Assembly: GCF_013362815.1 (NCBI RefSeq)
Contig: NZ_JABFVK010000059.1
Location: 1 to 64,000 of the forward strand
Length of the DNA stretch: 64,000 nucleotides
Source of the DNA: Hamadaea sp.
GTDB taxonomy: Bacteria > Actinomycetota > Actinomycetes > Mycobacteriales > Micromonosporaceae
Reading direction: 5' to 3'
This document shows positions 52,077 through 55,211 of the stretch, in pieces. The notes beneath the pieces were generated by a model. That model saw only the letters and a list, made by a program, of their open reading frames with translations, was not told the DNA's origin and ran no database searches. Positions within the stretch are counted from its first letter, which is position 1. Every line of letters starts with the position of its first letter. The translations under genes and the position numbers were made by a program.

Positions 52077-52994
52077 TCACGACCGCGAGACGAGCGCCCG
52101 GAGGAAGAACGTGAGGTTCGCGGGACGCTCGGCGAGCCGCCGCATGAAGTAGCCGTAGTACTCGCCGCCGTACGGCACGTAGACGCGCATCGTGTAGCCG
52201 GCGGCCGCGAGGCGCTCCTGCTCCGGAACGCGGATGCCGTAGAGCATCTGGTGTTCCCACGTGTCGGCCGAGCGCCTGTACTGGCCGGCCATGCGCTGCG
52301 CGGCCGCAATGATCGCGGGGTCGTGCGAGGCGACCATCGGGTAGCCGGAACCGGCCATGAGGATGTCGAGGCAGCGCAGGTAGGCCGCGTCGATCTCGTC
52401 CTTCTTCTGGTACGCCACCGTCGCGGGCTCCTTGTAAGCCCCCTTGCACAGCCGTACGCGGGACCCGGCAGCGGCGAGCTCGCGGCAGTCGGCCTCGGTG
52501 CGATGCAACGCCGCCTGCACGACTGCACCGACCCACGGGAACTCCGTACGCAGCTTGTGCAGGATGCGCAGGGTCGAGTCGGTGGTGGTATGCGACTCCA
52601 TGTCCAGGGTCACCGTCGTGCCGACGTCGGCCGCGGCGGCGCAAATGCGGCGGGCATTGGCCAGGGCGATCTCCTCGCCGTCACCCGGCAGCGCCTGACC
52701 GACCGCCGACAGCTTGACGGAGACCTCGGCCAGCGCCCCGTACGACAGCCCGCCCAGCAACGCCAGGTACGCCTCGACGGTGGCGTCGGCCTGCGACCGG
52801 TCGAGCGTGTCCTCGCCGAGGTAGTCGAGCGTGACGGCCCGGCCGCTGCGGATCAGCTCGCCGGTGACGGCGAGGGCGTCGGAGGTCGCGGTGCCGGGGA
52901 CGAACCGGTTGACCATCGCGCGGGTCGGGCGCAGGCGCTCGACGACCCGGCGCGTACGGCCGGAACGGGCGGCCGCCAGCAGGAGGGTACGCAT
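52077..52994 (-). CDS. Proline dehydrogenase
   Basis: The 305-aa monofunctional enzyme oxidises L-proline to pyrroline-5-carboxylate with FAD. It has the barrel segments VSVKLSAVGQAL, LDMESHTTTDS, VRLCKGAYKEP, VASHDPAII and the C-terminal EHQMLYGIR, including the two Arg of the substrate site nearby (YRRS). It is divergent from a PucR-type regulator (broken) with a 46-bp gap, the layout of actinomycete put loci; the P5C dehydrogenase that normally follows is not here. Confidence 0.95.
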   Translation of the reverse strand: MRTLLLAAARSGRTRRVVERLRPTRAMVNRFVPGTATSDALAVTGELIRSGRAVTLDYLGEDTLDRSQADATVEAYLALLGGLSYGALAEVSVKLSAVGQALPGDGEEIALANARRICAAAADVGTTVTLDMESHTTTDSTLRILHKLRTEFPWVGAVVQAALHRTEADCRELAAAGSRVRLCKGAYKEPATVAYQKKDEIDAAYLRCLDILMAGSGYPMVASHDPAIIAAAQRMAGQYRRSADTWEHQMLYGIRVPEQERLAAAGYTMRVYVPYGGEYYGYFMRRLAERPANLTFFLRALVSRS

Positions 52995-53040
52995 CACGCT
53001 GATCACGCTAGGCGGCTGACAGGCGCTACTGTTTGTGCTG

Positions 53041-54666
53041 ATGGACAACGTACGCGCCGATGGGTTGGAGCAACGGACAACGCTCCGGGAGATGATCACC
53101 GCGTTGGGTGGGCATCTCGTCGATGTCGTGATCGCCCCGAAGGGCCTCGCGGTCGGCGTACGCGACGTGGTGGTGGCCGATCCGTATGACGATCCGGCGC
53201 TGCGGCCCGGGGACGTCGTGCTCGTCGTCGGAGCGCGCGGCGCCGACGCCCGTCCGCTGCTCGTGCAGGCCGGAGCCCGTGGCGCCGCCGCCGTCGTGGT
53301 CAAAGGCGGCGTCACCTTGAAGGAGGCGGCCCGAGACGCCGGAGTCGCGCTGCTGACCGTCGACGCCGACGCGCGCTGGGACCAGGTGCAGACGTTGCTG
53401 CGCTCCGGGCTGGCCACCGCCGAGCCCGTTCCGCTGCCCAACGAGACGGGCGACCTGTTCGCGCTCGCGCAGACGATCGCCACGCTGACCGGGGGCAGTG
53501 TGAGCATCGAAGACGTCGGCAGTCGCGTCTTGGCGTACTCGGCGGTCGCGGGCGAGGTCGACGACCTGCGTCTGCGCTCGATTCTCGGCCGCCGGGGGCC
53601 TGAGCGCTATCTGGCGTTGCTGCGCGAGTGGGGCGTCTACGACGAACTGCGCAACCCCGATCACGTCGTCACCGTGCCCGACCATCCGGAACTCGGCATC
53701 CGGCGGCGACTGGCGATCGGGCTGCACGCGGGCGGCCGGCAGTTGGGCTCGATCTGGGTCCAGGAGGGCGGACGGTCCCTCGCCGACGCCGCGGCCGAGG
53801 TGCTGATCGGCGCGGCCCGGCTCGCGGCGCAGGACGTCGTCGCGCAGGCGCACGGCGCGACGAGCCGCGGTTCCCGATCGCGCCTGCTCGCCGACGGGCT
53901 CACCGGCCGGGTTCCCGGCGCGCTCGTCGCCGCCGACCTCGGCCTGCCGGCCGGTCCGGCGCTGCTCGTGGCGTGCGACATCCGGGATCAGCCCGGTGAC
54001 GGCGAGCCGGCGGGTGCCGCGTAGCGCCGGGCGCGCGCGGCCGAGATCATCGCCGTCCACGCGGCGGCGTTCCGGCGCAGTGCGGTCACGGCTCAGGTCG
54101 GACCGCGGGTGTACGCGATGCTGCCCGGCCTCGACGTCGACCCCGCCGGTGCGCAGGCCCAGACGTGGGCCGCCGAGACGACCGAAGCGGTACGCCGGGA
54201 GTCGGGCTTCCCGGTGCGAGCGGCGATCGTCACCGCGGACACGGCCGCACTGGATCATGCCCGAGCCGAAGCCGACCAGGTGCTTCAAGTGCTCCTACGC
54301 TCCCCCGACCGACCGGTCGGCACGATGGCCCAGGTACGCGCAGCAGTCCTCCTGCAGGAGGCGCTCGACGCCACGGCCGGGCTGCGCCATCCGGGGCTCG
54401 ACGCGTTGCTGGCGCACGACGCGGCCCACCACGGCGAACTCGCCACCACGCTGTCGTCCTATCTGGATGCATTCGGCGACGTCGCCGTGGTCGCCACCCG
54501 GCTGCACGTCCATCCCAACACCGTGCGGCATCGCGTACGCCGGGCGGCGGAGATCGCCGGGCTGGAGTTGGCCGATCCCGAACAACGGCTGCTGGCGGCG
54601 CTGCTCCTTCGGGGGGCTTTGCCCGTTCGCCGGGTCCGCTCGGGTCAGGAGTCCGGCCAGCTATAG
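53041..54666 (+). pseudogene. PucR-type proline-catabolism activator with in-frame amber stop
   Basis: The reading frame runs from the ATG at 53041 (TACTGT eight nt upstream, leaderless) to TAG at 54022-54024, codon 328, then continues in the same frame with AEIIAVHAAAFRRSAVTAQ and the C-terminal HTH (LHVHPNTVRHRVRRAAEIAGL; HPNTVRHRVRR is the PucR HTH_30 signature) to a stop at 54664-54666. Without the TAG the protein would be 541 aa, the normal PucR size. One C-to-T change (CAG to TAG) would explain it. The truncated product lacks the DNA-binding domain. It could also be a sequencing error. Confidence 0.85.
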
Positions 54667-55211
54667 GCGTACGCGAGGGAGAAGGTGCGTTTGATCCAGT
54701 CCGCCGACGCTTCGCCCGCCTCCGGCCGAGTGCCCGTCGCGGCGATGCGGTCGCGTACAGCCGCCAGATCGACCGACCGATCGTGGGTGGCCGTCACCTC
54801 TCCGTCCGCGATGATGAGCTCCACGACGTCGAGGAATCCCCACGCCGGCCAGAACCCCATGTTCAGGTACGCGATGTCGGCGACCTCCGCCCCGATGAGA
54901 AGCCGCCCGGTGAACGGCATCACGACGTCGGGCACGTCGTAGACGGCCGCTCCCCGGTTCCACGGGCGCGCCTGCGGTGTACGGGAGCGGCCGTACAGCT
55001 GCGTGTCGTGGACGGAGATCTCGACTCGGTTGAGCACCAACCGGCCGCTTTTGACGACGTACCGGCAGCAGTAGCCACGCCAGCAGCCGGTGCTCAGCGG
55101 CGACGGCTCCAGCCCGTGGTCGGCCGGATCGAACAGGCCGGCTCCGTCGATCGCCGCGATGGCGTACCGGCGGCGGTGGTAGCGGACCTCGTCCGGAATC
55201 TGCCCCGTCAT
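54645..55211 (-). CDS. Hypothetical protein
   Basis: The 188-aa soluble protein is not a family I can name. It has WRGYCCRYVVK, DTQLYGRSRTPQARPW and MPFTGRLLIGAEVADIAYLNMGFW segments that look like a beta-rich domain, and two tandem Cys. Its 3' end overlaps the end of the PucR gene by 22 nt (convergent). TAGGCT nine nt upstream of the ATG suggests a leaderless start. Confidence 0.65.
   Translation of the reverse strand: MTGQIPDEVRYHRRRYAIAAIDGAGLFDPADHGLEPSPLSTGCWRGYCCRYVVKSGRLVLNRVEISVHDTQLYGRSRTPQARPWNRGAAVYDVPDVVMPFTGRLLIGAEVADIAYLNMGFWPAWGFLDVVELIIADGEVTATHDRSVDLAAVRDRIAATGTRPEAGEASADWIKRTFSLAYAYSWPDS

Follow-up and report, generated by a model that had tools for sequence, protein, structure and literature searches.

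In the Hamadaea genome that we analyzed (G000), a very recent nonsense substitution has probably truncated a PucR-type protein that is encoded divergently to an accessory proline dehydrogenase and plausibly regulates it. In the window (the whole stretch of 64,000 nucleotides under study), codon 328 of a plus-strand frame starting with ATG at 53041 is TAG (amber), and the frame then resumes unshifted for 213 codons up to a terminal TAG at 54664-54666 (Table 1). A first-pass annotation of this DNA had reported that an amber codon at 54022-54024 splits a regulator gene and that the same protein continues past it without a shift. Both observations hold: the codon is present in the sequence, the frame beyond it is open, and the counterpart in G003, the complete relative, is uninterrupted and 93% identical over the whole frame. 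Identity to G003 is 0.97 over the 40 residues upstream of the amber codon and 1.00 over the 40 downstream, and the alignment is gap-free except for five extra G000 codons near the 3' end. The counterpart in G002, which like G003 is congeneric with G000 (Hamadaea, Micromonosporaceae), is uninterrupted from residue 231 on, with 92% identity, its upstream part being cut by a contig end. The amber codon is the sole lesion of the frame in G000.

Table 1. Coordinates of the regulator gene, its amber codon and the divergent proline dehydrogenase gene in the window
Feature	Position	Strand	Evidence
Proline dehydrogenase gene, intact, divergent	52077..52994	-	Pfam PF01619, 110 bits vs 27; dN/dS 0.059 vs G003
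Divergent intergenic region, 46 bases between the two start codons	52995..53040	.	Sequence; presumed shared promoter/operator (function inferred)
5' half of PucR/CdaR-type regulator gene, 327 codons upstream of the amber	53041..54021	+	93% identity to G003 frame
In-frame amber TAG, codon 328	54022..54024	+	Sequence; same column CTG in G003, CTC in G002
3' half of regulator gene, 213 codons plus terminal TAG	54025..54666	+	Open in same frame; dN/dS 0.079 vs G003
HTH_30, PucR C-terminal helix-turn-helix (Pfam PF13556)	54439..54612	+	63 bits vs cut-off 27

The amber codon separates the DNA-binding domain from the rest of the regulator

The only recognizable DNA-binding domain, HTH_30, occupies residues 467-524 of the read-through frame and lies entirely downstream of the amber codon, in keeping with the earlier statement that the DNA-binding half is lost. 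Because of this position, the product up to the amber has no known DNA-binding domain. The part before the amber alone gave no Pfam match. Against the NCBIfam AdeR model, the read-through frame scores 89.9 bits in total, with an equivalog cut-off of 700 and the best stretch at residues 140-273. The N-terminal PucR domain (PF07905) had no match at E 0.05 in the regulator of either G000 or G003, and reached only a sub-threshold score (14.6 vs 33.5 bits) in one distant relative, L008. The GGDEF-like middle domain (PF17853) is unmatched in the G000 regulator and matched in L008 and in the PucR-type regulator of another Hamadaea genome, G001. In a PDB search, PucR-type chains (Rv2242, 3onq) matched the regulator in its helix-turn-helix part only.

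The frame is equally constrained on both sides of the stop

Between G000 and G003, dN/dS is 0.082 before the amber codon (327 codons) and 0.079 after it (197 codons, to column 525). The corresponding values are 0.075 (96 codons) and 0.112 for G000 and G002, and 0.107 and 0.136 on the two sides of the amber column between the intact relatives G002 and G003. We also counted the changes private to each genome, at columns identical in the other two, from codon 231 to the stop and then after the stop. G000 has 15 synonymous and 1 nonsynonymous private changes in the first part and 31.5 and 7.5 in the second, with no significant difference between the two (Fisher p 0.26 on rounded counts). The same counts are 11 and 2 in both parts for G003, and 12 and 2, then 17 and 9, for G002. 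Over 419 nonsynonymous and 171 synonymous sites, a rough Poisson bound, drawn from three sequences and without a tree model, makes eight or fewer nonsynonymous changes improbable (P < 0.05) if the neutral share of the branch exceeds about 10-15%. By this rough bound, selection would have acted on the frame during at least about 85% of the private history of the G000 lineage.

The lesion is missing from the orthologs, with Leu in two of two near ones, and selection downstream of the lesion shows no relaxation (dN/dS 0.079 after vs 0.082 before), so any pseudogene would be very young. Young nonsense pseudogenes of free-living bacteria likewise combine a single stop, intact orthologs and undecayed downstream sequence, and the G000 gene has no notable difference from them. 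Purifying selection after the amber would be equally expected if the 3' half were still translated, by readthrough or restart. From these comparisons, we judge the stop to be young, false or incompletely effective.

Sequencing error is a less likely source of the stop

A base-calling or assembly error would give an identical sequence, and reads are needed to tell it from a mutation. That the amber is such an error, of sequencing, consensus or assembly, and the gene intact, we regard as a serious but clearly less likely account than a recent mutation. In favor of an error, the assembly of G000 is a draft (7.45 Mb in 124 contigs, completeness 97.47), the lesion occurs in G000 alone, and the sequence downstream of it has zero decay, as in an intact gene. 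On the other hand, the window contains no N and no second clear internal stop in ~12,700 aligned residues, and a single wrong base is insufficient to produce TAG from CTG (two changes) or CTC (three). A single-base error would need the true codon to be TTG, CAG or another one-step neighbor.

The quality of the window was gauged with 58 G003 ORFs picked by codon bias in the syntenic 70 kb, 38 of which matched the window at ≥60% (12,729 residues). Five of these 38 were flagged for a stop in the window, and only the amber codon clearly interrupted a conserved coding frame. In two flagged ORFs the stops were confined to weakly conserved extensions at the N terminus (residues 46, 76 and 81 of 578; residue 89 of 408), the 578-residue ORF being, in our judgement, an over-long start call; the remaining two were antisense to other genes. 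In the reverse comparison, 41 of 57 window ORFs were matched and six were flagged for stops in G003, among them ORF 52077-53507, which represents the proline dehydrogenase frame called from too early a start. We rejected poor overall quality of the window, with a single clear lesion in ~12,700 aligned residues.

Near relatives point to a leucine codon as the likely source of the amber

The amber had been ascribed to a CAG to TAG change as the simplest cause, and the near relatives give this no support: the column is Leu in both, CTG in G003 and CTC in G002, and not Gln. A path through CAG would need an additional Leu to Gln step, and we rejected it as the simplest one. Given a conserved Leu, the likeliest route would run from CTG through TTG to TAG; in 14 genes of the window, 8.3% of the 746 Leu codons are TTG. 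Among 17 distant relatives the residue is D, R, V, Q, T, A or H, in an alignment that is loose at this column (a loop of varying length), so that these residues serve as a guide only. Given the Q in 2 of the 17 (L012 and L019), a Gln intermediate would not be impossible.

Readthrough and restart are improbable

If the amber were read through often enough by natural suppression to yield some full-length regulator, low-level function would be kept and equal constraint on both sides would follow; youth alone accounts for that constraint as well, and we consider such suppression improbable. The variable loop in which the amber lies would probably tolerate any inserted residue. The available text of a survey (PMC7918605) argues that in-frame stops under purifying selection (dN/dS < 1) are widespread in bacterial genes but for the most part short-lived, a pattern that the regulator amber fits. 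TAG is moreover an ordinary terminator in G000: it ends the regulator gene itself, as it does in G003 and G002, and among ORFs chosen by codon bias it terminates 16 of 57 in the window and 21 of 58 in G003.

A check for suppression, proposed in the first-pass annotation and run here on the genome, gave no support to readthrough. No tRNA with a CTA anticodon was present among the 47 Rfam tRNA matches in G000, and PylS was not found in that genome. ARAGORN called 47 distinct genes on 45 tRNA-bearing loci, none of them CTA, and left uncalled the Rfam match L153, whose anticodon loop is without CTA. The assembly's tRNA set is incomplete: some essential isoacceptors are missing, the ARAGORN list having no tRNA-Cys, tRNA-Gly(GCC) or tRNA-Val(GAC), so a missing CUA tRNA is not proof of absence. 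The four matches to a search pattern for tRNA-CUA included a single real tRNA, tRNA-Arg(TCT). The same pattern with CCA matched 67 places, including an ARAGORN-confirmed tRNA-Trp; it detects real tRNA and returns mostly noise.

A further reading, which we hold to be more improbable still, is that the amber acts as a reversible dimmer that the cell tolerates: occasional readthrough at a permissive loop would keep the regulator at a low level, and this would be selected because full induction of the accessory proline dehydrogenase is unnecessary. It is also very improbable that the two halves are made separately, with translation of the 3' half restarting at an in-frame start codon downstream of the amber. 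The first candidates, GTG at 54109 and then ATG at 54118, would leave 185 and 182 residues including the helix-turn-helix, but by eye the 20 bases preceding each candidate hold no convincing Shine-Dalgarno sequence, and in both near relatives the frame is continuous. A recent nonsense mutation remains our preferred explanation.

Two low-scoring tRNA genes were seen in the course of this census, L152 and L153 (43.3 and 41.2 bits), ~3 kb apart on contig C51 of G000 (at ~14.7 and 17.6 kb). The census has one tRNA-Arg(gcg), probably L152, an anticodon unexpected alongside tRNA-Arg(acg); the anticodon loop of L153 is odd. Both may be tRNAs of a mobile element.

The divergent proline dehydrogenase is a plausible target

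The neighbor of the split regulator had been named as proline dehydrogenase, and an intact PF01619 gene, starting with ATG at 52994 on the minus strand, does adjoin it. The back-to-back layout of the two genes is the same in G003; in G002 a contig end cuts it off. A tandem 8-base repeat, ATCACGCT (spacing 9), lies at 52993-53009, across the proline dehydrogenase start, and is found in G003 too; it is a possible, putative operator.

Within flanks of ~1.5 kb, a PucR-like gene lies beside proline dehydrogenase at 3 of 34 loci, those of G000, G003 and G001, all of this genus, and the G001 member is a different PucR-type gene. None of the 28 loci from other genera of the family has such a neighbor within the same flanks; these loci come from the top matches of a search that hit 118 of 121 family genomes and are not a random sample. 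This adjacency check rests on query rows other than L012, L016, L017 and L022. In the fetched flanks of the regulator's 17 distant relatives we found no proline dehydrogenase. At the G001 locus (L065, 3404-7297, contig C30), the other PucR-type gene is divergent to proline dehydrogenase, and an aldehyde dehydrogenase follows, presumably of the P5C dehydrogenase type (Pfam says only Aldedh). The close relative of that aldehyde dehydrogenase in G000 sits on another contig (C114).

PutR/PrcR and PruC (Rv1186c), the latter a PucR-type protein, provide good precedent for the function guessed in the first-pass annotation. In the available text of PMC13198045, PutR/PrcR of Bacillus subtilis is a proline-responsive activator of putBCP, with the gene order putB-putC-putP-putR. 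The likeness, by description and not by sequence, is that of a PucR-type regulator gene beside a proline dehydrogenase gene, with a C-terminal HTH_30 in the Hamadaea protein; the Hamadaea pair differs in being divergent and in having no P5C dehydrogenase or transporter seen next door. PruC, as described in the accessible part of PMC8415957, citing Berney 2012, regulates growth of Mycobacterium tuberculosis on proline, and so resembles the Hamadaea protein, in role and not by sequence, as an actinobacterial regulator of proline catabolism. Our literature search found no direct study of PruC. According to the part of PMC7652997 available, studied PucR-type regulators, including PutR (proline use), are activators, and B. 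subtilis PucR is both activator and repressor. The same text describes GabR of Corynebacterium glutamicum as a PucR-type activator whose gene is divergent to gabT, its catabolic target, as in the Hamadaea layout, whereas the GabR target serves GABA use and GabR is without the GGDEF-like domain. With these precedents, and with neighborhood as the only link in Hamadaea, it is plausible that the adjacent proline dehydrogenase is the regulator's target, and plausible by the same analogy that the regulator is an activator.

A second proline dehydrogenase should buffer loss of the regulator

G000 encodes a second proline dehydrogenase on contig C56, 61% identical to the window copy and next to what we take to be a PhoU-like gene. 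Identity to 26 of the 28 family loci is 70-84% for the C56 copy and 59-63% for the window copy; the remaining loci (L084 and L086) adjoin a relative of P5C dehydrogenase and are ~58-62% identical to both copies. By these identities, the C56 copy is taken to be the type found across the family, and the window copy looks accessory. Since the family-type copy is present, loss of the window copy's putative regulator, whatever its extent, should be buffered. The expectation that loss of the DNA-binding half would change proline catabolism is weakened accordingly.

With a recent nonsense mutation as the cause, the 327-residue product would be unable to bind DNA, and the allele would now be null or nearly so. 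Should the regulator, like its studied relatives, be an inducer-dependent activator, the accessory dehydrogenase would lose its proline induction, and the second, family-wide dehydrogenase would keep proline catabolism going. We conclude that the amber observation is correct and that its cause and consequence had been overstated. An inactivating change of this kind is an ordinary event, a very young nonsense allele or else a base-calling slip, and its significance is slight beyond the G000 genome. It would represent a nonsense change caught ahead of decay, and the regulator affected is a local one with a duplicated target enzyme, a setting in which its loss is expected to be cheap. The lesson is to check the codon of near relatives before naming a mutation path.

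At its 3' end, the regulator gene is overlapped by 22 bases, tail to tail, by a 188-residue gene at 54645-55211 on the minus strand, which gave no Pfam or NCBIfam match. G003 is unalignable over this stretch, and the regulator's five extra G000 codons sit just before the gene end.
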